Part shown: positions 4,235-64,000 of the stretch, piece by piece
How positions within the stretch are numbered: position 1 is the stretch's first letter
Layout: the number at the start of each line of letters is the position of its first letter
Assembly (NCBI GenBank): GCA_947628695.1
Contig: CANRAV010000008.1
Span: 20,951 to 84,950, forward strand
From: an uncultured Clostridia bacterium
GTDB lineage: Bacteria; Bacillota; Clostridia; Oscillospirales; CAG-382
DNA: 64,000 bases
Direction of reading: 5' to 3'
Notes under the pieces: generated by a model
The model's database searches: none
Told to the model about the DNA's origin: nothing
Seen by the model: only the letters and a program-made list of their open reading frames with translations
Made by a program: the position numbers and the translations under genes

Positions 4235-4236
4235 GC

Positions 4237-4520
4237 CCCACCACTCACTACGTTCGCGGCGGGGGCCCCGATTTGTTTCCCCAAAAAATCTTACGATTTT
4301 TCGGGGACCCCGAATAGGCTAATAGGTTGGCTCTTGGGAAAATGCGATTTTCCCAAGAGCCTTCGGTTTATTATAGATTCCCGTTCACTCGCGTCTCGCG
4401 CCTTGCCCCCTCCGCGGGGCGGCGTCAAGGCACTCGCGGGAATCCAAGGAGAATTTTCCGCGGTACGTGCCCGCGGAAAATTCAAGTTTTATTGTATGCT
4501 CGCTTCGCTCGCGGGGCGGG
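4237..4520 (+). repeat. Family A palindromic repeat, copy A1
   Basis: Intergenic composite of consecutive palindromes. First comes a CCCCAAAAAATC...GATTTTTCGGGG hairpin. Then GGCTCTTGGGAAAA...TTTTCCCAAGAGCC, then an arm GATTCCCG pairing with CGGGAATC around a GC-rich core. Next is GAATTTTCCGCGG...CCGCGGAAAATTC, and finally GCTCGCTTCGCTCGC. The same order recurs at 12074, 47564, 58525 and 63488. No transposase is present, so it resembles a MITE/REP-like non-autonomous element. Confidence 0.85.
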
Positions 4521-5261: not shown

Positions 5262-5284
5262 GCGGAAAAAGCTTCCGCTTTTTT
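5262..5284 (+). terminator. Rho-independent terminator after hicB
   Basis: GCGGAA-AAAGC-TTCCGC stem followed by TTTTTT, starting 5 bases after the hicB stop. Confidence 0.85.
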
Positions 5285-5341
5285 CTTAAAAATACCATCC
5301 GCGCTGCGGACACCGCACTTCTTCACTCGCCGCCGGCGCAA

Positions 5342-5568
5342 CATACGTGCAGCAGGCCTAAACACAGTGAAAGCACCGCCTGCGTTGGCGGCTCGGGATT
5401 CCAAAGGGCTGTGCCCTTTGGGCCTAAAAAGCTATTGTTTTAAATAAGCCTTAAATAGAGAGCCATGAAGGGACCGAGTCCCTTCATATAAAAACACAGG
5501 CCGAGCGCGAGCTCGGCCAAGATAAAAAACAAAAAAGCGAAAAAGCGAGGCCGAGCGTGAGCTCGGCC
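5342..5568 (+). repeat. Family B palindromic repeat, copy B1
   Basis: Starts with CATACGTGC and contains three hairpins in order: CCAAAGGG/CCCTTTGG, TGAAGGGAC/GTCCCTTCA and GGCCGAGC/GCTCGGCC. The last hairpin is present twice here (5499-5518 and 5549-5568). Other copies are at 7524, 10619, 25352, 46457, 53398 and 54214. It sits immediately 3' of the first LRR/dockerin gene and may serve as its terminator. Confidence 0.87.
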
Positions 5569-7505: not shown

Positions 7506-7523
7506 CGCTTCGCGTCGGCGCTC

Positions 7524-7702
7524 CATACGTGCGACCGGCCTTTACACGGCGCAGGCGCGGCCTGCGTTGCCAGCTCGGGATTCCAAAGGGTGCCAACCCT
7601 TTGGCTCTAAAAAGCTATGTTTTTCTATAAACTTAACCCAAAACAGCCATGAAGGGACCGAGTCCCTTCATATAAAAACCAAGGCCGAGCGTGAGCTCGG
7701 CC
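7524..7702 (+). repeat. Family B palindromic repeat, copy B2
   Basis: Same order as B1: CATACGTGCGACCGGCC, the hairpin CCAAAGGGTTGG-type (here CCAAAGGGTGCCAACCCTTT), then TGAAGGGAC/GTCCCTTCA, then GGCCGAGC/GCTCGGCC. It lies 3' of the second LRR/dockerin gene. Confidence 0.87.
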
Positions 7703-7745
7703 ATAATAATATAAATAAATCAATAATAAATAATCAAAGCAAAGG

Positions 7746-9296
7746 CTAAAGCGCATCGACAACGCCGGCGTCAAGCTTGAGTATGCGGGAGGCGTCTACG
7801 TTGTTGACGAAGCCGTCTTCGATGACGTCGAGGAGGGCAAGCTGCTCTTCGGTCGGCGTTTCGACGCCGGCGTCGTATTTAAGCACGGCCGTCGCGTCGA
7901 TGTTGTTTACAAGCCCGTCGCCGTTGCCGTCGCCGAGGTTCTCGGGTCTGCGGTGCGCACCGCACACGTCGCAGTACTCGTCGTCTTCGTTTTCAAACAC
8001 GTGGTCGGCCGTGTCCTTCGCGGCGCCGCAGACGGAGCAGGCGTGCCAGTGGCGTTTGCTGTTGCTTGACCAGGTGTCTTCGTATTCGTGGTCGGCCGCT
8101 TCAAGAGTCTTGCCGCAGACGGTGCACTCCTGCCAATGCTGCGTTTCGTCGCACTTCCAAACAAAGCTGTGGGTCACCTCGCGCTTTTCGCCGCAGATGC
8201 TGCAGTCCTCGTCACAGGCGGCCTCGTAGAAGTGAAGGTCGCAGTCCTCGGTCTTCTTGTACCAAGTCGCGCTTTCGCCGCCTACGGTCACGGTGCCGGT
8301 GAAGGGGTAGCTGCCTTTTACAAAGTCGTTCGCGGGGACGCCGTCGGCAAGGATTACCGTCCCGGCTTTGGCAAGGACTATCCCCGCGTCCGTCCCGTCA
8401 TCTATGTCCGGGAACTGTTTATCCGTAAGAAGCTTTGCTATATCGGGCGACTTTATGTAAACAAGCTTAAGCGGGCAGCCGTTGAAGGCGCCCCAATCGA
8501 TAAAGGTGACGGACTTCGGGACGGTTACGCTTTCAATTGCGGAACAGCTTGAGAACATATGATCTTCGACGGTCTTAAGCCCTTCGGGGAGGACTATCTC
8601 CGTAAGGGAGGTGCAGCCGGCGAACGCGGAGTCTCCGATCTCGCTGACGCTGTCGGGGATAGCAATGCTTTCAAGGGTGGAGCAGCCCCAGAAGGCGCAA
8701 CCGCCGATCTCGGTGACGGTATAGGGAAGGGTTATGCCCGTGAGAGACGAGCAGCCCCGAAACGCGTCGTCCCCGATAGAAGTGACGCCGTACGGAATGA
8801 CGCTGTTTTTGCAGCCGGCGATAAGGGTATCGGTCGCTGTCTCTATGATGCAGTCGCCCGCACTGTGGTAGACGGCGTTCCCCGCGCCGACGGTCATCCT
8901 CTCAAGCCCGGAGCAGCTATAAAACAGGCACTCGCCCAGGGAGGTGACGCTGTCGGGGACGGCAATGCTTTTAAGGGCGGAGCAGTTCCAAAAGGCGCCA
9001 TCGCCGATTTCGGTGACGCCGTCGGGAAGGGTTATGCCCGTGAGAGACGAGCAGCCATTGAATGTGTGTTCTTCGATAACGGTTACGCCGTCGGGAATGT
9101 TGACGCTTGCAAGAGAATTGCAGCCTTCAAACGCATGACTTCCGATAGAAACAACACTGTCGGGAACGGTTATGCTCTTTATACCTCGGCAGAAGTAAAA
9201 CGCACTGCCGGCGATAAGCCTTGTGCCCTCGGGTATTTCACAGTCGCCATTTATGCTGTCCCTTGCCTTTAACAGGTTTTTGCCGATGTACAGCAT
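7746..9296 (-). CDS. C-terminal part of split LRR/dockerin protein
   Basis: This 516-residue ORF has about 10 LRR_5 repeats (for example LPDGVTEIGDGAFWNC). The shared DFVKGSYPFTGTVTVGG module follows. Then comes a Cys/His-rich stretch with two HWxxCxVCG repeats (HWQECTVCGKT and HWHACSVCGAA). A C-terminal dockerin (DGNGDGLVNNID, DVIEDGFVNNVD) ends the protein. It has no signal peptide of its own because the first ATG in the frame lies inside the repeat domain. If translated alone it would stay in the cytoplasm, which makes little sense for a dockerin protein. It is best read as the downstream part of the interrupted gene. Confidence 0.7.
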   Translation of the reverse strand: MLYIGKNLLKARDSINGDCEIPEGTRLIAGSAFYFCRGIKSITVPDSVVSIGSHAFEGCNSLASVNIPDGVTVIEEHTFNGCSSLTGITLPDGVTEIGDGAFWNCSALKSIAVPDSVTSLGECLFYSCSGLERMTVGAGNAVYHSAGDCIIETATDTLIAGCKNSVIPYGVTSIGDDAFRGCSSLTGITLPYTVTEIGGCAFWGCSTLESIAIPDSVSEIGDSAFAGCTSLTEIVLPEGLKTVEDHMFSSCSAIESVTVPKSVTFIDWGAFNGCPLKLVYIKSPDIAKLLTDKQFPDIDDGTDAGIVLAKAGTVILADGVPANDFVKGSYPFTGTVTVGGESATWYKKTEDCDLHFYEAACDEDCSICGEKREVTHSFVWKCDETQHWQECTVCGKTLEAADHEYEDTWSSNSKRHWHACSVCGAAKDTADHVFENEDDEYCDVCGAHRRPENLGDGNGDGLVNNIDATAVLKYDAGVETPTEEQLALLDVIEDGFVNNVDASRILKLDAGVVDAL

Positions 9297-9989: not shown

Positions 9990-10210
9990 TTTTCGGTACC
10001 TCCGTTTTTTATTTTGTCCATCGACAGCGCGATGGAATCGAGCTGAAGCAAAGCGGTTTTTATGCTTCCGATTCAATTATACATCAAAAAAAAAAAAAAC
10101 AACAACATTAAATCAAAAAAAACATTAAAAAAGTAAGAAAAAGGCAAAGACTTGTTTTCTTTATCAAGCCCGCACGGTCTGCGCCTTTCGGGAAAAACGG
10201 TAAAAAACTA

Positions 10211-10239
10211 TTGACAAATTGCCCGGACGGGTATATAAT
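10211..10239 (+). promoter_or_regulatory. Antitoxin RNA promoter, locus 1
   Basis: TTGACA (10211-10216), 17-base spacer and TATAAT (10234-10239). The spacer holds CCCG-GA-CGGG, a small inverted repeat. Confidence 0.88.
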
Positions 10240-10245
10240 GCAAGT

Positions 10246-10348
10246 AGAAAAAGGGCGTGGCCGATAAGCGGTTGACCCCAACTGTTGGTTTACCTACTCA
10301 AAAGAGCAGGCGACCGCCGCTGTCGGAATCAGTGGCGGTCATTTTTTT
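10246..10348 (+). ncRNA. Antisense antitoxin RNA, locus 1
   Basis: Predicted RNA of about 100 nt from the consensus promoter to a terminator hairpin GACCGCCGCTG/CAGTGGCGGTC (10312-10340) plus seven T. The 5' part reads GGGCGTGGCCGATAAGCGG. A middle hairpin CCTACTC/GAGCAGG precedes the terminator. The RNA converges on the small toxin gene and covers its stop codon and 3' UTR, the usual geometry of type I antitoxins such as RatA. The same RNA recurs at loci 2, 3a, 3b and (truncated) 4. Confidence 0.82.
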
Positions 10349-10431
10349 CGATTGTTGTGCTTGAAACACAAGTCGATAACCGAAAGTATGATTGCAACGA
10401 AGCCGAAAAAGACCTCATATGTAATGTACAT
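10339..10431 (-). CDS. Small hydrophobic type I toxin, locus 1
   Basis: A 30-codon ORF, far below the track cutoff: MYITYEVFFGFVAIILSVID then a basic tail ending NNRKK. It has one transmembrane helix, an acidic residue near the start and a positive C-terminus, like holin-like/TxpA-type membrane toxins. The ATG follows AAAGGAGGT with ideal spacing. Its own promoter lies at 10559-10532. The stop TGA is the first part of the antitoxin terminator stem. Family assignment is inference; the peptide, promoter and ribosome site are visible. Paralogous loci are at 47306 and 53886. Confidence 0.82.
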   Translation of the reverse strand: MYITYEVFFGFVAIILSVIDLCFKHNNRKK

Positions 10432-10531
10432 ACGACTACCTCCTTTCCTCGCCAAACAAGCGAAAGCTTGATGCTTTGAAAAGAAGGAGCCAACCGCCTA
10501 CCGTTATGGTCAACGCCCTGATTCTAATTTT

Positions 10532-10559
10532 ATTATACAACAAAATTATAATTTGTCAA
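10532..10559 (-). promoter_or_regulatory. Toxin promoter, locus 1
   Basis: Minus strand TTGACA (10559-10554), 16-base spacer, TATAAT (10537-10532). The ~100-nt leader contains GGTAGGCGGTTGGCTCC and a hairpin just before the ribosome site. Confidence 0.87.
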
Positions 10560-10569
10560 CACAAAAACG

Positions 10570-10607
10570 TCGCCGCGCAAGTAAGCCTGCGCGGCGATTT
10601 TGCTTTT
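10570..10607. terminator. Hairpin bounding the toxin module, locus 1
   Basis: TCGCCGCGCA-N8-TGCGCGGCGA followed by TTTTGCTTTT on the plus strand. The same hairpin lies immediately upstream of the toxin promoter at loci 2 and 3, so it is a conserved boundary of the module. Confidence 0.8.
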
Positions 10608-10618
10608 ATTGTGCGCTC

Positions 10619-10795
10619 CATACGTGCGATAAACCTAAACATCAATGCGGCGCAGCCTGCGTTGGCGGCTCGGGATTCCAAAGGGCTGTGCCCTTTGGGC
10701 CTAAAAAGCTATTGTTTTAAATAAGCCTAATTTAGAGAGCCATGAAGGGACCGAGTCCCTTCATATAAAGACACAGGCCGAGCCGGGGCTCGGCC
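10619..10795 (+). repeat. Family B palindromic repeat, copy B3
   Basis: CATACGTGCGATAAACC, CCAAAGGG/CCCTTTGG, TGAAGGGAC/GTCCCTTCA and a variant last hairpin GGCCGAGCC-GG-GGCTCGGCC. It separates TA locus 1 from the third LRR/dockerin gene and lies 3' of that gene. Confidence 0.86.
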
Positions 10796-10827
10796 ATAAT
10801 AATAAAATCAATAATAAAGCACAAATC

Positions 10828-12073: not shown

Positions 12074-12358
12074 TGCGAGCGAAGCGAGCATATAACAATT
12101 ACGAAAAATCCGGCGACAGGTGCGCCGGATTTTTCTCCTTGGATTCCCGCGAGTGCCTACCACTCACCCCTGCGGGGCGGGGGGTAGGCGCGAGGCGCGA
12201 GCGAACGGGAATCTATAATGACTGAAGGCTCTTGGAAAAGCCGCGCTTTTCCAAGAGCCAACCTATTAGCTAAACCGGGGTCCCCGCCGCGAACGTAGTG
12301 AGTGGTGGGGATTAAAATCGGGGGTACCCCCGAAAAGCCGCAAGGCTTTTTGGGGGAT
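12074..12358 (-). repeat. Family A palindromic repeat, copy A2 (inverted)
   Basis: Reverse orientation of A1. Hairpins include GGCTCTTGGAAAAG/CTTTTCCAAGAGCC and AAAAGCC-GCAA-GGCTTTT. GAAAAATCCGGCG/CGCCGGATTTTTC replaces the usual GAATTTTCCGCGG stem. It fills the space between an LRR gene and the 3' end of asnA. Confidence 0.85.
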
Positions 12359-25319: not shown

Positions 25320-25351
25320 TTGGATTATTATTTCATATTGTATTTGATTAT

Positions 25352-25530
25352 GGCCGAGCTCGCGCTCGGCCTTGGCTTTTTTTACGGAGGGACTCGGTCC
25401 CTCCGTGGCTCTCTAAATAAGGCTTTTTTAACAACATAGCTTTTTATGCCCAAAGGGTTGGCACCCTTTGGAATCCCGAGCTGGCAACGCAGGCCGCGCC
25501 TGCGCCGTGTAAAGGTCGGCCGCACGTATG
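25352..25530 (-). repeat. Family B palindromic repeat, copy B4 (inverted)
   Basis: Begins GGCCGAGCTCGCGCTCGGCC followed by a T-rich run, 33 bases after valS, so it can act as the valS terminator. The middle hairpin is CGGAGGGAC/GTCCCTCCG, where other copies have TGAAGGGAC/GTCCCTTCA; both arms changed together. It ends CACGTATG. Confidence 0.86.
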
Positions 25531-25544
25531 AAACGCCGGCGCGG

Positions 25545-45316: not shown

Positions 45317-46435
45317 ATGGAAAAAACCTTTCGCACTGCCGCAATTATTTGCGAGTACAACCCCTTCCACTACGGGCACATGCACCAGATAAAGGTCGTA
45401 AAGGAAAGCGCCGGCCTTGTCGTCGGCATTATGAGCGGCGACTTCGTCCAGAGGGGCGACGTCGCAGTCGCCGGCAAGTACAGCCGTGCAGCCGCAGCCG
45501 TGGACGGCGGGATGGATCTCGTCTTGGAGCTGCCCTTCCCCTACTGCCTCGCCTCCGCGTCCGACTTCGCCGCAGCAGGCGTGCGCCTTGCCGCCGCAGT
45601 GGGTGCCGACGCGCTCGCCTTCGGCTGTGAAGACCCTGCCGAATCCTTGCTCCCCATAGCGCATTCACTTGCGGACGGCACGCTTAAGACCCGTGCCCCC
45701 GCCCTTATCGCCGCCGATAAGACGCTTTCCTACCCCCGCGCGCTGCAGGCAGCCGCCGCCGAGCAATGCGGCGCCGCTTCCGCCGCCGCAATGCAAAAGC
45801 CCAACAACATCCTCGCTTGCGAGTACCTGGCCGCCATAGAAAGCGAACACCTCCCCCTGCAGCCCATCTTCGTAAAGCGCGACGGCCGCTATCGCTCCTC
45901 CTCCGACATACGAAGCCGCAAAAACATGCGTCCCGCGCTGCCGTTCCCCGCGCACTTTGCGGAGCGCCGCAGCCTCCGATACGCCGAGCGCGCAGTCCTC
46001 TACGCGCTGCGCACCTCGACAGACGGCGTCTTCTACGGCGTGGACGCCTCCCTCGCCGCAAGGATAAAAGCCGCTGCCTGCGCCTCTGCCACGCTTGACG
46101 AGCTCGTCGGGCGCGTCACCTGCAAGCAGTACACCGCCGCGCGCGTGCGCCGCGCCGCGCTTGCCGTTTGGCTTAAAATAAGCGCCGACGCCGTAAAAGC
46201 GCCGCCCTGCTTTACAAACCTGCTTGCCGCAAACAAGCGCGGGCTTGCCTTCCTGCGCAGTCGCAGCGGCGCGCATTCGCTCCCCGTCATAACCAAACCC
46301 GCCGACTACAAAAACCGACCCGGCATCGCGCCTGTCTACGAGGCCGCCGTCGCCGCCGCCGAGTGCGCCGCCCTCTGCTGCCCCGTCCTTCCCCCCTACG
46401 GCTCACCGTTTAGGGGAAGGCCATATATTGTTTGA
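45317..46435 (+). CDS. tmcAL: tRNA(Met) cytidine acetate ligase
   Basis: TmcAL (YlbM) activates acetate with ATP to acetyl-AMP and makes N4-acetylcytidine at the wobble base of elongator tRNA-Met. The 372-residue protein begins AAIICEYNPFHYGHMHQI, the nucleotidyltransferase HxGH motif. SGDFVQRGDVAVAGKYSRA and ELPFPYCLASASDFAAAGV follow. LPLQPIFVKRDGRYRSSSDI is a later family segment. It lies 82 bases from the divergent ackA start. A family B repeat follows its stop. Confidence 0.93.
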   Translation: MEKTFRTAAIICEYNPFHYGHMHQIKVVKESAGLVVGIMSGDFVQRGDVAVAGKYSRAAAAVDGGMDLVLELPFPYCLASASDFAAAGVRLAAAVGADALAFGCEDPAESLLPIAHSLADGTLKTRAPALIAADKTLSYPRALQAAAAEQCGAASAAAMQKPNNILACEYLAAIESEHLPLQPIFVKRDGRYRSSSDIRSRKNMRPALPFPAHFAERRSLRYAERAVLYALRTSTDGVFYGVDASLAARIKAAACASATLDELVGRVTCKQYTAARVRRAALAVWLKISADAVKAPPCFTNLLAANKRGLAFLRSRSGAHSLPVITKPADYKNRPGIAPVYEAAVAAAECAALCCPVLPPYGSPFRGRPYIV

Positions 46436-46456
46436 TTTTTTTGGTTTTGTTTTTGT

Positions 46457-46639
46457 GGACGGGCTTTTCGCCCGTCCTTGGTTTTTATTATGAAGGGACT
46501 CGGTCCCTTCATGGCTGTTTTGGGTTAAGTTTACAGAAAAACACAGCTTTTTAGAGCCAAAGGGTTGGCACCCTTTGGAATCCCGAGCCGGCAACGCAGG
46601 CAGCGCTTTCACTGTGTTTAGGTCGGCTGCACGTATAAA
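46457..46639 (-). repeat. Family B palindromic repeat, copy B5 (inverted)
   Basis: Starts with GGACGGGC-TTTT-CGCCCGTCC, a stem unlike the usual GGCCGAGC one but in the same place. TGAAGGGAC/GTCCCTTCA, CCAAAGGG/CCCTTTGG and the CACGTATAA end follow. It lies between tmcAL and the orphan hicB. Confidence 0.85.
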
Positions 46640-47107: not shown

Positions 47108-47157
47108 TAACGGTGTACAGGCTGACTGCTCGCATGTGACGCCGGATAACACAAAAA

Positions 47158-47190
47158 TCGCCGCGCAGTTTTTCTTGCGCGGCGACATTT
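47158..47190. terminator. Hairpin between hicB and type I TA locus 2
   Basis: TCGCCGCGCA-N8-TGCGCGGCGA then CATTTCT. It can terminate hicB and is the same boundary hairpin seen at TA loci 1 and 3. Confidence 0.8.
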
Positions 47191-47193
47191 CTA

Positions 47194-47221
47194 TTGACAA
47201 AATTCGCTAAAAGCGTATAAT
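47194..47221 (+). promoter_or_regulatory. Toxin promoter, locus 2
   Basis: TTGACA (47194-47199), 16-base spacer, TATAAT (47216-47221). The spacer has CGCT-AAA-AGCG. Confidence 0.87.
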
Positions 47222-47305
47222 ATTTTCGAAGGGCGTTATAGCCATAACGGTAGGCGGTTGGCTCCTCCTTTCTCGCTTTCTAAGCGAGGGGAAGGAGGGA
47301 TGCCG

Positions 47306-47404
47306 ATGTTTTTTGATTCATTTGAATCGATTTTCGTGCTTATAAGCATGATATGCGACCTTATACAATTGGTCGTTACAATCGTAAAAATGCGCAAAAA
47401 ATGA
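47306..47404 (+). CDS. Small hydrophobic type I toxin, locus 2
   Basis: A 32-codon ORF: MFFDSFESIFVLISMICDLI then a Val-rich helix and VKMRKK. It has one transmembrane helix, acidic residues at the start and a basic end. The second of two nearby ATGs is chosen because AAGGAGGG lies 7 bases before it, whereas the first ATG is too close. The leader hairpin CCTCCTT...GAAGGAGG masks that ribosome site. The stop TGA begins the antitoxin terminator stem. Holin-like/TxpA-type membrane toxins are the nearest known concept; no experimental relative is claimed. Confidence 0.83.
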   Translation: MFFDSFESIFVLISMICDLIQLVVTIVKMRKK

Positions 47405-47497
47405 CCGCCACTGGACTCAACAGCGGCGGTCGCCTGCTCTTTTGAGTAGGTAGCGTCTAAATTTGGGGCCAACCGCTTATCGGCGGCGCCCTTTACT
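47395..47497 (-). ncRNA. Antisense antitoxin RNA, locus 2
   Basis: Minus-strand RNA of about 100 nt. 5' part: GGGCGCCGCCGATAAGCGG then TTGGCCCC. A CCTACTC/GAGCAGG hairpin follows, then terminator GACCGCCGCTG/CAGTGGCGGTC and ATTTTTTGCG. It converges on and overlaps the toxin stop codon and 3' UTR. Its near-identity in structure with the RNAs at 10246, 53644 and 53797 supports one RNA family. Confidence 0.84.
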
Positions 47498-47503
47498 GTT
47501 TGT

Positions 47504-47532
47504 ATTATATACCTAACAAGAGAATTTGTCAA
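47504..47532 (-). promoter_or_regulatory. Antitoxin RNA promoter, locus 2
   Basis: Minus strand TTGACA (47532-47527), 17-base spacer, TATAAT (47509-47504). Confidence 0.88.
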
Positions 47533-47563
47533 GTGTTTTTACAAAAATGCCTCGTCACAAAAC

Positions 47564-47801
47564 CGCGAGCGAAGCGAGCATACAATCAAACTTGAATTTT
47601 CCGCGGGCATGTACCGCGGAAAATTCTCCTTGGATTCCCGCGAGTGCCTACCCCCACCCTCGCGGGGTGGGGGCAGGCGCGAGACGCGAGTGAACGGGAA
47701 TCTATAATAAACCGAAGGCTCTTGAGAAAGCCGCGCTTTCTCAAGAGCCAACCTTTTAGTCTTAACAGGGGCCCCCGTAAAGCCGTAAGGCTTTATGGGG
47801 A
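47564..47801 (-). repeat. Family A palindromic repeat, copy A3 (inverted)
   Basis: Contains GAATTTTCCGCGG/CCGCGGAAAATTC, the GATTCCCG/CGGGAATC arms, GGCTCTTGAGAAAG/CTTTCTCAAGAGCC and TAAAGCC-GTAA-GGCTTTA. It lies between the locus 2 antitoxin promoter and the 3' end of the SDR gene. Confidence 0.86.
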
Positions 47802-47805
47802 ATTT

Positions 47806-53386: not shown

Positions 53387-53397
53387 GTTTATTATTT

Positions 53398-53574
53398 GGC
53401 CGAGCTCACGCTCGGCCTTGGTTTTTAATGAAGGGACTCGGTCCCTTCATGGCTCTCTAATTAAGGCTTATTAAAGACAATAGCTTTTTAGAGCCAAAGG
53501 GTTGGCACCCTTTGGAAACCCAATTTGGCAACGCAGGCTGCGCTTAAGCCGTGTAAGGGCCGTCTGCACGTATG
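53398..53574 (-). repeat. Family B palindromic repeat, copy B6 (inverted)
   Basis: GGCCGAGCTCACGCTCGGCC, TGAAGGGAC/GTCCCTTCA, CCAAAGGG/CCCTTTGG and end CACGTATG. It follows capA by 11 bases. With B7 at 54214 it frames TA locus 3 as an inverted pair. Confidence 0.87.
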
Positions 53575-53608
53575 AGGTGCGGGTGCTTTTTGGAAAATAT
53601 AAAAAAGC

Positions 53609-53637
53609 TTGACAAATTGCTTTGCAAAGTATATAAT
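53609..53637 (+). promoter_or_regulatory. Antitoxin RNA promoter, locus 3 copy a
   Basis: TTGACA (53609-53614), 17-base spacer, TATAAT (53632-53637). The spacer holds the perfect palindrome CTTTGCAAAG. Confidence 0.87.
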
Positions 53638-53643
53638 ATAGTC

Positions 53644-53743
53644 GAAGGGCAAAGCCGATATGCGGTTAGCTCCAATATGTAGTTTTACCTACCTTAAAAA
53701 GTAGGCGACCGCTGCTGCCGGAACAGTGGCGGTCATTTTTTGC
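53644..53743 (+). ncRNA. Antisense-type antitoxin RNA, locus 3 copy a
   Basis: Same RNA family: GGGCAAAGCCGATATGCGG then TTAGCTCC, hairpin CCTAC/GTAGG, terminator GACCGCTGCTG/CAGTGGCGGTC (53707-53734) and ATTTTTTGCG. It is the outer of two tandem copies and does not itself overlap the toxin gene, so it would act in trans unless transcription reads through. Confidence 0.78.
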
Positions 53744-53761
53744 GAAAAATATTAAAAAAGC

Positions 53762-53790
53762 TTGACAAATTGCTTTGCCAAGTATATAAT
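53762..53790 (+). promoter_or_regulatory. Antitoxin RNA promoter, locus 3 copy b
   Basis: TTGACA (53762-53767), 17-base spacer, TATAAT (53785-53790). It differs from copy a by one base in the spacer palindrome (CTTTGCCAAG). Confidence 0.87.
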
Positions 53791-53796
53791 ATAGTC

Positions 53797-53896
53797 GAAG
53801 GGCAGAGCCGATATGCGGTTAGCTCCTGCATAGCTAATTACCTACTAAAATAAGTAGGCGACCGCTGCTGCTGGAACAGTGGCGGTCATTTTTTCC
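53797..53896 (+). ncRNA. Antisense antitoxin RNA, locus 3 copy b
   Basis: GGGCAGAGCCGATATGCGG then TTAGCTCC, hairpin CCTACT/AGTAGG, terminator GACCGCTGCTG/CAGTGGCGGTC (53860-53887) and ATTTTTTCC. It directly converges on the toxin gene and covers its ancestral stop codon. Confidence 0.82.
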
Positions 53897-54022
53897 GTAA
53901 GCTCATAATTGCTATTATAAGGCTTGCAATGCTTGTGATCAGGCCTAAAAGGCTGATTATAACATTAAAAGGCTGATTATAACATTAAAGAAGCCAAAAA
54001 AAGCGTCATATGTGACAAACAT
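53886..54022 (-). pseudogene. Type I toxin gene broken by a 20-bp tandem duplication
   Basis: From ATG 54022 (after AAGGAGGTGGAG) the peptide reads MFVTYDAFFGFFNVIISLL and then hits TAA at 53957-53959 after two more codons. The cause is a perfect tandem duplication of AAAAGGCTGATTATAACATT (53947-53966 and 53967-53986), which shifts the frame. Removing one copy restores a 38-residue peptide ending SLRKK that stops in the antitoxin terminator stem, exactly like loci 1 and 2. Promoter and ribosome site are intact, so only a 21-residue peptide would now be made. Confidence 0.85.
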
Positions 54023-54128
54023 CCTCTCCACCTCCTTCCTTCGCTTGGAAAGCGAGTTCGGATGCACCGTAAGGCGCATCAAGGCGGAGCTAACCGCACA
54101 CCGATATGGCCGTGCCCTTCTTACGTAC

Positions 54129-54156
54129 ATTATACACCTTTAGCGAAATTTGTCAA
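54129..54156 (-). promoter_or_regulatory. Toxin promoter, locus 3
   Basis: Minus strand TTGACA (54156-54151), 16-base spacer, TATAAT (54134-54129). The sequence CGCTAAAGGTGTATAAT resembles the locus 2 toxin promoter. Confidence 0.85.
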
Positions 54157-54164
54157 TATAAATG

Positions 54165-54200
54165 TTGCCGCGCAAGAAAACAGCGCGGCAATTTTTATTT
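54165..54200. terminator. Hairpin bounding the toxin module, locus 3
   Basis: TTGCCGCGC-N9-GCGCGGCAA followed by TTTTTATTTT on plus, directly upstream of the toxin promoter. Confidence 0.8.
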
Positions 54201-54213
54201 TCATCCCACACCT

Positions 54214-54390
54214 CATACGTGTGACTGGCCTATACATGGCTGAAACGCAGCCTGCGTTGCCAAATTGGGTTTCCAAAGGGCTGTGCCCTTTGGGCCTAAA
54301 AAGCTATGTTGTTCAATAAGCCTAATTCAGAGAGCCATGAAGGGACAAAAGTCCCTTCATTAAAAACCAAGGCCGAGCGTGAGCTCGGCC
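54214..54390 (+). repeat. Family B palindromic repeat, copy B7
   Basis: CATACGTGTGACTGGCC, CCAAAGGG/CCCTTTGG, TGAAGGGAC-AAAA-GTCCCTTCA and GGCCGAGC/GCTCGGCC. It forms the right side of the inverted pair around TA locus 3. Confidence 0.87.
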
Positions 54391-54480
54391 ACAAAAATAA
54401 AAGCCATAAAAATAAAAGCGCAAAGAAGTGCATACAAATCCCCAAACCGGCGTAGAATTAAAAAAACGGAGGGGCAAGCG

Positions 54481-58443: not shown

Positions 58444-58517
58444 GCGAGTGTAGCTCAATGGCAGAGCGTCCGCTTCCCAAGCCGAATACGCGGGTTCGAT
58501 TCCCGTCACTCGCTCCA
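58444..58517 (+). tRNA. tRNA-Gly (anticodon CCC)
   Basis: A 74-nt cloverleaf with encoded CCA. Acceptor GCGAGTG/CACTCGC is perfect and T-arm GCGGG-TTCGATT-CCCGT fits. Anticodon loop TTCCCAA gives CCC, reading GGG. The anticodon stem TCCGC/GCCGA contains one C-C mismatch. A family A repeat follows within about 10 bases. Confidence 0.92.
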
Positions 58518-58524
58518 TTTTTCC

Positions 58525-59045
58525 CCATTGCTCGCTTGCGCTCGCAACGGGGGCCCCGGTTTAGGCTAAAAGGTTGGCACTTGAGAAAACGCAGTTTTCT
58601 CAAGTGCCTTCGGTTTATTATAGATTCCCGTTCACTCGCGCCTGCGGTGTTTCCCCCAAAAACCTGACGGTTTTCGGGGGTGCCCCCGATTTGTTTCCCC
58701 AAAAAATCTTACGATTTTTCGGGGACCCCTTTAACTTTTCCCATAAAGCCTTACGGCTTTACGGGGACCCCGGTTTAGACTAATAGGTTGGCTCTTGAGG
58801 AAACGCAGTTTTCTCAAGAGCCTTCAGTTATTATAGATTCCCGTTCACTCGCGTCTCGCGCCTACCCCCACCCCGCGGGGGTGAGGGGTAGGCACTCGCG
58901 GGAATCCAAGGAGAATTTTCCGCGGCACCTGTCCGCGGAAAATTCGTTATTTGATTGTATGCTCGCTTCGCTCGCGTCTTTTGCGGCTTCGCCGCTGTTC
59001 GCTTCGCTCGCGGGATTGCGGCTTCGCCGCCGTTCGCGGGGCGGG
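58525..59045 (+). repeat. Family A palindromic repeats, copy A4 (two nested units)
   Basis: The first unit has GGCACTTGAGAAAA/TTTTCTCAAGTGCC and breaks off into chained hairpins AAAACC-TGAC-GGTTTT, AAAATC-TTAC-GATTTT and AAAGCC-TTAC-GGCTTT, separated by GGGG/CCCC runs. The second unit is complete: GGCTCTTGAGGAAA/TTTTCTCAAGAGCC, the GATTCCCG/CGGGAATC arms and GAATTTTCCGCGG/CCGCGGAAAATTC. A tail of TTCGCTTCGCTCGCGG-like repeats follows. Confidence 0.85.
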
Positions 59046-59166
59046 CGGCGGCAGATTTTTTCGGCGCTTTTGCCAAAAGTTGCGCATCGTTTGATATATG
59101 TGCTTGATTTTCGCAAAAGTATTTGGTATAATGGTGTAATAAAAGGCGAAAGGCGGTGTTTTATCT

Positions 59167-59952
59167 GTGCCGCGTATAAAGACGGTTGTCTTTGCAAATC
59201 AAAAGGGCGGCGTGGGTAAGACCACCTCGGCGGTGAACGTCGCCGCCTGTCTTGCCGCAAGCGGAAACAGAGTTCTGCTTGCGGACTGCGACCCGCAGGG
59301 CAACGCGACAAGCGGGCTTGGCGTCAGCAAGAGGGACGGAGCCGCCTCTGTTTACGACCTGCTTATCGGCAGGGTGAAGGCGGCGGACGCCGTGCGGAAG
59401 ACCGCCTTTGAAGGGCTTTACATCATCCCCTCCGGCATCGACCTTGTCGGCGCGGAGATAGAGCTTGTGGACGAGCCGAGGCGGGAGTTCCGCCTTCGGG
59501 ACGGGCTTGAAGAGGTAAAGGGTGAGTTTGACTACATAGTGCTTGACAGCCCGCCGTCCTTGGGGCTGCTTACAATGAACGCGCTTATCGCCGCAGACGG
59601 GGTCGTGGTGCCCCTGCTTTGCGAGTACTATTCGCTTGAGGGGTTAAGCCAGCTTACGGCGACGGTAAGGCAGATACAAAAGCGTTACAACCCTGCCTTG
59701 GAGCTTACGGGTGTGCTTGTCAACATGTACGACGGGCGCTTAAACCTGTCGCTTCAGGTGCTTGGAGAGATAAAAAAATACTTCGGTGCAAAGCTTTTCA
59801 AAACTCCGGTGCCGCGCAACGTGCGGCTTAGCGAGGCTCCCAGCTACGGAGAGCCGATAAATATTTACGACAAAAGCTCTAAGGGTGCGAAGGCCTACGA
59901 GGCGGTCGCTTCAGAGCTTGCCGAAAGGTGCGGAGGGGCGTATGGCGCTTAA
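59167..59952 (+). CDS. parA: ParA/Soj chromosome-partitioning ATPase
   Basis: Walker-type ATPase that works with ParB in chromosome segregation and, in Firmicutes, replication control. It starts at GTG 59167 after AAAGGCGGTG. The 261-residue protein has the deviant Walker A KGGVGKTTSAVNVAACLA, Walker A' VLLADCDPQGNATSGLG and Walker B FDYIVLDSPPSLGLLTMNAL. Length fits Soj. It overlaps parB by 11 bases, the canonical order. Confidence 0.96.
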   Translation: MPRIKTVVFANQKGGVGKTTSAVNVAACLAASGNRVLLADCDPQGNATSGLGVSKRDGAASVYDLLIGRVKAADAVRKTAFEGLYIIPSGIDLVGAEIELVDEPRREFRLRDGLEEVKGEFDYIVLDSPPSLGLLTMNALIAADGVVVPLLCEYYSLEGLSQLTATVRQIQKRYNPALELTGVLVNMYDGRLNLSLQVLGEIKKYFGAKLFKTPVPRNVRLSEAPSYGEPINIYDKSSKGAKAYEAVASELAERCGGAYGA

Positions 59953-63487: not shown

Positions 63488-63822
63488 AATCCCCCAAAAA
63501 CCTGACGGTTTTCGGGGGTACCCCCGATTGATTTTCCCCCAAAAATCTGACGATTTTCGGGGGACCCCCATTATGACTAATAGGTTGGCACTTGAGAAAA
63601 CGCGGTTTTCTCAAGTGCCTTCGGCTTATTATAGATTCCCGTTCGCTCGCGCCTCGCGCCTACCCCCACCCCGCGGGGGTGAGTGTAGGCACTCGCGGGA
63701 ATCCAAGGAGAATTTTCCGCGGTACATGCCCGCGGAAAATTCGTTATTTATTATATGCTCGCTTCGCTCGCGGTTTTAGGCGACTCCGTCGCTGTTCGCT
63801 TCGCTCGCGGGCGGGACGGGAA
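63488..63822 (+). repeat. Family A palindromic repeat, copy A5
   Basis: Chained hairpins AAAACC-TGAC-GGTTTT and AAAATC-TGAC-GATTTT, then GGCACTTGAGAAAA/TTTTCTCAAGTGCC, the GATTCCCG/CGGGAATC arms, GAATTTTCCGCGG/CCGCGGAAAATTC and the GCTCGCTTCGCTCGCGG tail. Confidence 0.86.
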
Positions 63823-63837
63823 TTTTTGTTAAAAAGC

Positions 63838-63866
63838 TTGACAAATTGCGCGGGCGGGTATATAAT
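63838..63866 (+). promoter_or_regulatory. Antitoxin RNA promoter, locus 4
   Basis: TTGACA (63838-63843), 17-base spacer, TATAAT (63861-63866). Confidence 0.85.
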
Positions 63867-63871
63867 ACTAA

Positions 63872-63923
63872 TAGTAAAGGGCGCCGCCGATAAGCGGTTG
63901 ACCCCAAGTTTAGAAGTTACCTA
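63872..63923 (+). ncRNA. Truncated antitoxin RNA, locus 4
   Basis: The 5' half of the antitoxin RNA (GGGCGCCGCCGATAAGCGG, TTGACCCC, TTACCTA) is present. It is then replaced at 63924 by a copy of the A5 tail, so hairpin 2 and the terminator are missing within the window. Confidence 0.65.
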
Positions 63924-64000
63924 ATTTATTATATGCTCGCTTCGCTCGCGGTTTTAGGCGACTCCGTCGCTGTTCGCTTCGCTCGCGGGCGGGACGGGAA
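63924..64000 (+). repeat. 77-bp direct repeat of A5 tail at window end
   Basis: Identical to 63746-63822 at an offset of 178 bases; it runs to the last base of the window. It could be a tandem duplication or a contig-end artefact. Confidence 0.75.

Follow-up and report, generated by a model that had tools for sequence, protein, structure and literature searches.

A composite palindromic repeat at gene ends in an uncultured Clostridia bacterium and its relatives

The hairpin chain behind tRNA-Gly and its copies

The window considered here, a 64,000-nucleotide stretch of one contig of an uncultured Clostridia bacterium, carries a tRNA-Gly (ccc) gene at 58444 to 58517 on the forward strand, identified with ARAGORN and Rfam. 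After a gap of 5 nt, a chain of hairpins begins at 58523 and continues on the same strand to about 58976. We found that this chain consists of two joined copies, the first truncated and the second full, of a composite repeat with four kinds of part: hairpins of a type called U1, hp2 (a hairpin of 15 bp), a three-way junction, and hp4, the last hairpin. In sense order it reads U1, hp2, the left part of a junction, three U1, a second hp2, the three-way junction, hp4 and a TTATTTGATTGTATG box. The initial annotation had placed a chain of palindromes at 58525 to 59045; the chain is there, but that span omits the first bases of U1, and part of the anatomy had been missed.

Each U1 unit has the form CCCC..GGGG followed by a third arm, CCCC. 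The first unit, at 58523 to 58557, reads CCCC-ATTGC..GCAAC-GGGGGCCCC; hp2 of the first copy (GGCACTTGAGAAAAC/GTTTTCTCAAGTGCC) follows at 58576 to 58608, where a covariance model of hp2 (R1) matched contig positions C8:79516-79590, and the left part of the junction (ATTATAGATTCCCGTTCACTCGCG) occupies 58617 to 58640. The U1 units of the second copy lie at 58653 to 58687 (CCCCC-AAAAACC TGAC GGTTTTC-GGGGGTGCCCCC), 58697 to 58729 (CCCC-AAAAAATC TTAC GATTTTTC-GGGGACCCC) and 58740 to 58771 (CCC-ATAAAGCC TTAC GGCTTTA-CGGGGACCCC). The second hp2 (GGCTCTTGAGGAAAC/GTTTTCTCAAGAGCC, 58790 to 58822) and hp4 (GAATTTTCCGCGG/CCGCGGAAAATTC, 58913 to 58945) were delimited from sequence and covariation. Between them, the three-way junction at 58836 to 58906 is supported by covariation and by a covariance model of junction and hp4 (R2), which matched 58833 to 58945 with 131.7 bits. 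The junction comprises an outer stem (GATTCCCG/CGGGAATC, 58836 to 58843 and 58899 to 58906), a mini-hairpin AC-TCGC-GT (58847 to 58854) and, within the same interval, a variable hairpin GCCTACC..GGTAGGC. The box that closes the chain, TTATTTGATTGTATG at 58947 to 58961, resembles the TTTTATTGTAT box found 3' of hp4 in a second genus of the family, g2.

No T run follows hp4; at this locus a terminator-like hairpin with a T run lies further on, at 59026 to 59052, where it ends a series of GCTCGCTTCGCTCGCG/GCGGCTTCGCCGC repeats (58961 to 59052) that includes a run of GCTCGC/GCGGCTTCGCCGC at 58977 to 59048, beyond the hairpin chain. Outside the element, a promoter-like site at 59104 to 59132 precedes a gene with a GTG start (59167 to 59952, forward strand), which we call ParA-like ATPase after a sequence motif only. 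Folding of the stretch as RNA gave z = -8.0, and folding of its complement as DNA gave z = -9.5.

The window contains four further copies, at 4.2, 12.1, 47.6 and 63.5 kb. The copy at 4236 to 4513 (forward strand), with two U1, hp2, junction and hp4, stands directly 3' of a TAG stop; that at 63490 to 63773 (forward) begins 4 nt 3' of a TAA stop, and that at 47564 to 47802 (reverse) 5 nt 3' of the stop codon of a fabG-like gene. In the copy at 12075 to 12356 (reverse), the hp4 stem has been replaced (AAAAATCCGGCG/CGCCGGATTTTT), as the initial annotation had reported. The paired stem variants it described are likewise all present: GGCTCTTGGGAAAA/TTTTCCCAAGAGCC at 4.3 kb, GGCTCTTGGAAAAG/CTTTTCCAAGAGCC at 12.2 kb, and GGCACTTGAGAAAA/TTTTCTCAAGTGCC at both 58576 to 58608 and 63.6 kb. 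The variation it listed for a small hairpin also holds, its AAAGCC-GCAA-GGCTTT being the opposite-strand reading of AAAGCC-TTGC-GGCTTT at 12.3 kb.

Across the 1.97 Mb genome, R1 found 39 hp2 matches in 34 loci, antisense echoes of the palindrome excluded, and R2 found 32 junction matches; copies were taken through a first-look filter that some may have escaped, so that these counts are possibly a minimum. At 24 of the 34 hp2 loci the element starts 0-6 nt 3' of a stop codon or, at the locus studied here, of the tRNA; at five the upstream reading frame enters the element and takes its stop inside, and the remaining five have no clear gene end at the element start. All three types of stop codon precede the element, and where it abuts a gene end it has the sense of the adjoining gene. 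The same holds genus-wide, where copies begin 0-9 nt past a stop codon (or tRNA end) and are nearly always in sense. Among the copies of this genome, hp2 and hp4 types combine as mosaics.

Other repeats share this neighborhood. A second family, in which a leader AAAGGGCGCCGCCGATAAGCGGTTGGCCCC comes after a promoter-like TTGACA..TATAAT, often sits just past the hairpin chain (window 10201 to 10609, 47144 to 47541, 53594 to 54411 and 63830 to 63907), and a perfect direct duplication of 77 bp (63746 to 63822 and 63924 to 64000) flanks the promoter-like site at 63.8-63.9 kb. A dispersed repeat of about 200 nt, its copies 74-90% alike, occurs seven times in the window (5278 to 5532, 7511 to 7758, 10613 to 10817, 25338 to 25531, 46431 to 46636, 53388 to 53583 and 54205 to 54411). 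A further one, repeat C (..GGCGCGGTACAATAGATGAAAGGCTTCATACG..CCAAAGGGCTGTGCCCTTTGG..), lies 3' of many chain copies that have no promoter repeat, for example at loci L042, L007 and L031 of this genome.

Distribution in relatives

R2 detected junction and hp4 in four of the seven genomes of the genus, and across the family it matched 19 of 63 genomes, most of them in genus g2 and one in a third genus. The element thus spans at least two genera of one family of gut Clostridia, and three by model score. Copies in sister species share one layout: a stop codon, a few nucleotides, at least one U1, a linker, the junction, TAAGG and hp4. At loci with an upstream gene, their U1 start lies no more than about 9 nt from the stop codon, two larger distances being an artefact of a U1 pattern that missed the first unit. 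They have no hp2, so we consider hp2 an addition in the present genome. Genus g2 shows the same layout. Tandem arrays of four U1 directly past a stop codon were seen at L318 (genome G004, 3' of asnA) and L352 (genome G001).

Judged by their flanks, G001 and G004 carry copies at matching places, within what appear to be mutS-mutL and pgk-tpiA operons, the gene names having been read from sequence only. The mutS copies of the two genomes differ by compensated stem changes, TTTTTG/CAAAAA against TTTCCG/CGGAAA. In relatives without the element, the orthologous genes usually have a terminator-like hairpin about 5-45 nt past the stop. The element had no Rfam match at gathering score and no match in phage and plasmid collections, and scanning the genomes of other species for a pattern taken from the linker of this genome gave none.

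Covariation and the scarcity of wobble pairs

The stems covary strongly. Among 14 distinct hp2 copies, both sides had changed in 11 of 15 pairs, and 99.5% of cells were paired, compared with 86.2% in shuffled alignments, none of which reached the observed pairing in 500 trials, and 39-59% in slid versions. All 38 hp2 copies taken together gave Watson-Crick pairs in 563 of 570 cases, even though some stems (GGCTCTTGAG, GATAATTGAG, GGCACCCCGG) have almost no sequence in common. For the junction, 44 distinct copies from four species of the genus showed double-sided change in 14 of 24 pairs, and 47 distinct rows, with the second genus included, in 21 of 24; in the latter set 192 cells were changed on both sides and four on one, and 97.6% of cells were paired compared with 77.8% after shuffling, figures helped by the fact that the junction alignment, unlike that of hp2, was made to fit the structure. 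The outer stem of the junction takes more than ten sequences and is complementary in all rows but one, which the script parsed poorly. Even the 2-bp mini-stem RC-TCGC-GY covaries (G-C/C-G, A-T/C-G, G-C/T-A, A-T/T-A) around its invariant TCGC loop. The other conserved unpaired parts are ACTYGC, AAGG, CAC(A/C)TGT and TTATTGTAT. The initial annotation's reading of the paired changes left no place for random unpaired changes in the arms, and none occurred in the 38 hp2 and 47 junction copies. In its covariation the element exceeds both the shuffled and the slid controls, as a structured RNA should.

Tolerance of wobble pairs, also expected of a structured RNA, tells otherwise. RNA-selected stems normally tolerate G.U pairs. 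We counted 4 G.U and 16 A.C among 1,091 cells of the element stems (0.37% G.U; for hp2 alone, 3 G.U and 4 A.C among 570 pairs) against 39 G.U and no A.C among 427 cells of the stems of 20 distinct tRNAs from the same loci (9.1% G.U; Fisher p 6.6e-18, a rough comparison whose p is only indicative because the cells are not independent, given shared descent and exchange between copies). The near-absence of G.U indicates that pairing is kept as Watson-Crick, as would follow from copying of one arm onto the other in replication or from a role of the DNA fold itself. These counts suggest that it is at the DNA level that pairing is maintained. Template switching by the polymerase from one arm to the other, with selection in addition, is the simplest account, and selection on RNA alone fits poorly. 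Template switching can introduce several compensatory changes at once and can invert a loop (PMC8794818, PMC8604942). Since a stem of 2 bp does not offer enough length for arm-to-arm copying, part of the covariation must be due to selection, and the conserved loops and the retention of copies at the same loci in sister species likewise show selection at work. The initial annotation had offered selection for the fold or arm-to-arm gene conversion as alternatives; arm copying now seems the likelier of the two, with selection acting beside it.

An unrelated repeat suggests that such copying takes place in this lineage. Repeat X, about 223 nt long with 14-86 BLAST matches per genome in six relatives (G001 to G006; loci L118 to L147 and L148 to L267, for example L118 at 1501-1763 and L119 at 1501-1769), is flanked in 60 of 68 copies by a duplicated local terminator-like hairpin (20-37 bp), whose two copies nearly always end exactly at the junctions with the repeat and presumably started identical. 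In 51 pairs of equal length, over about 522 bp of stem, we found six single and two double compensatory changes (both G-C to T-A), where independent mutation would by our own estimate yield about 0.02 double changes. The loops differ more than the stems (17 of 280 positions), and in the right-hand hairpin copy the loop is inverted over an unchanged stem at L189 and L210 and, by eye, at L184 and L188. From the double changes and the inversions, arm copying and loop flipping seem to occur here. Repeat X orientation relative to genes was uninformative, most copies lying between apparently convergent ORFs.

Repeat X is probably a MITE whose target hairpin becomes duplicated, judging by the likeness of its ends (CAGACCGCTGACAAAG, CAGANTGCTGAGAAAG) to those of an IS1182-family element in G001 (CAGACTGTCGAAAAAG/CAGCCTGTCGAAAAAG; 12-13 of 16 bases). 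That element starts directly 3' of a hairpin and encodes a transposase matching NF033551 with 403.6 bits (L268 at 1064-2515, contig G001:C19; also L169, L221 and L289). At L289 the end of the IS lies past the rplL terminator, which in G004 (L293) stands without an IS end. IS1272, a member of the IS1182 family, replaces stem-loops (PMC5678879, PMC4923244).

The same evidence bears on the view that the element is a conventional structured RNA (a 3' UTR regulator, a non-coding RNA or a terminator), shaped by selection on the RNA fold alone through stepwise compensatory mutation. This view would lead one to expect the sense orientation at gene 3' ends, the covariation seen in the three-way junction with its invariant loops and 2-bp stem, and the RNA fold z-score. 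Against it, G.U pairs are rarer than A.C pairs in the element, the reverse of the tRNAs, and there is no Rfam match; its terminator version is further opposed by placement in the apparent mutS-mutL and pgk-tpiA operons and by the missing T run past hp4. We regard it as unlikely.

Spread, comparison with known systems and interpretation

A RAYT-like enzyme acting in trans, for which the initial annotation proposed a search, is not supported: Y1_Tnp had no match in this genome (G000, 87% complete), and across the family it exceeded the cut-off in 3 of the 19 element-bearing genomes compared with 14 of the 44 without the element. Nor was an IS1182 transposase found in this genome. At L337 and L347 the far side of the element carries a second copy of the final bases of the upstream gene, and at L368 one of the stop region; these duplications hint at insertion or tandem events without a constant rule, no constant target duplication being seen at the element and no empty site at the loci examined. 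Replacement of a terminator by the element in the manner of IS1272 is possible. The element starts where the terminator region would be, but U1 follows the stop more closely (0-9 nt) than do many native terminators in relatives (about 5-45 nt), and no empty site was found at the loci examined. A resemblance between the hp2 linker and repeat X (an R1 match with E 1.7e-4 in G003, plus a pattern) was taken as chance, because the element copies of sister species have no hp2.

The element could still be a non-autonomous mobile element, its single-stranded or cruciform DNA fold being acted on by an enzyme in trans, so that perfect pairing is needed and insertion is biased to the strand exposed at gene 3' ends. 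High copy number, patchy distribution, wobble-free pairing as DNA would show, and the duplications at L337, L347 and L368 speak for such an element; the enzyme searches, which found none, and the want of a constant target duplication speak against it, and we find it improbable. More doubtful still is the particular form in which a hypothetical enzyme reads the perfectly paired single-stranded fold and places it sense-wise directly past stop codons, where the target may be the strand that lies exposed at the ends of transcribed genes. Very unlikely, finally, is a view of the palindromes as functionless, with template switching keeping them perfect and recombination among copies spreading them. 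Homogenised arms and inverted loops do occur in this genus and hp2/hp4 types are mosaic, but the invariant loops, the covarying 2-bp stem, the single orientation at stop codons and the shared loci in sister species ask for selection.

The closest parallels are the REP and BIME sequences of enterobacteria and Pseudomonas, which are, as the element is, multi-copy extragenic palindromes, imperfect repeats in mosaic chains that lie between genes and at 3' ends and whose stems change with compensation. The element differs in being far larger and composite, with a three-way junction, and in abutting stop codons in one orientation; no RAYT was found for it either. REP palindromes are marked at one foot by the tetranucleotide GTAG or CGTC (PMC3733652), and by eye we saw neither at a foot of the palindromes of the element. 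IS1182-family elements, such as IS1272/TnSha1, and their MITEs are present at gene ends in the same genus, in association with terminator hairpins (PMC5678879, PMC4923244). Repeat X has ends of this kind, whereas inspection of the element by eye showed no CAGWCTGTCGAAAAAG-like terminal inverted repeats, and no duplicated hairpin was seen at its edges. The hairpin elements of fungal and sponge mitochondria (double-hairpin elements, RHE) look mobile, insert hairpins in tandem and spread by a mechanism that is unsettled (PMC2800124); the element is set apart from them by its bacterial chromosome, conserved junction and fixed place past stop codons. RNA hairpins maintained by template switching, with multiple compensatory changes per event and loop inversion, have been described for rRNA, microRNA and yeast genes (PMC8794818, PMC8604942), whereas ours is a dispersed bacterial repeat family.

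The element is a REP-like repeat without an Rfam entry. Its position, orientation and conserved loops suggest a REP-kind element of mRNA 3' ends and intercistronic regions. Alongside the anatomy, the place past stop codons and the nearly wobble-free covariation documented above, we favor, with a probability of about 0.5, the reading that it is a non-coding multi-copy element that acts as a piece of the mRNA 3' end and whose stems are kept by arm copying together with selection. It would be transcribed as the 3' UTR or an intercistronic part of the host mRNA and fold there; by analogy with REPs, the folded element may shield the upstream message from 3' exonucleases and uncouple neighboring genes. 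DNA polymerase would switch template between the arms of extruded hairpins, both sides changing in one event, and this may be the main reason that the stems stay perfect palindromes, while selection would keep the loops and the fold. A REP-like role alone leaves the tight link to stop codons unexplained.

Covariation is commonly taken as proof of a selected RNA fold. Here it is very strong yet without wobble, which points to a mutational process, arm copying, that can itself create covariation. A simple control, which could be applied elsewhere, is to count G.U pairs against those in tRNAs from the same genomes, and repeat X between its duplicated terminators supplies hairpin pairs with an identical start, a clean clock for hairpin evolution. 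The element itself is a natural series, extending over more than one genus, in which the spread of palindromes to gene ends can be studied.
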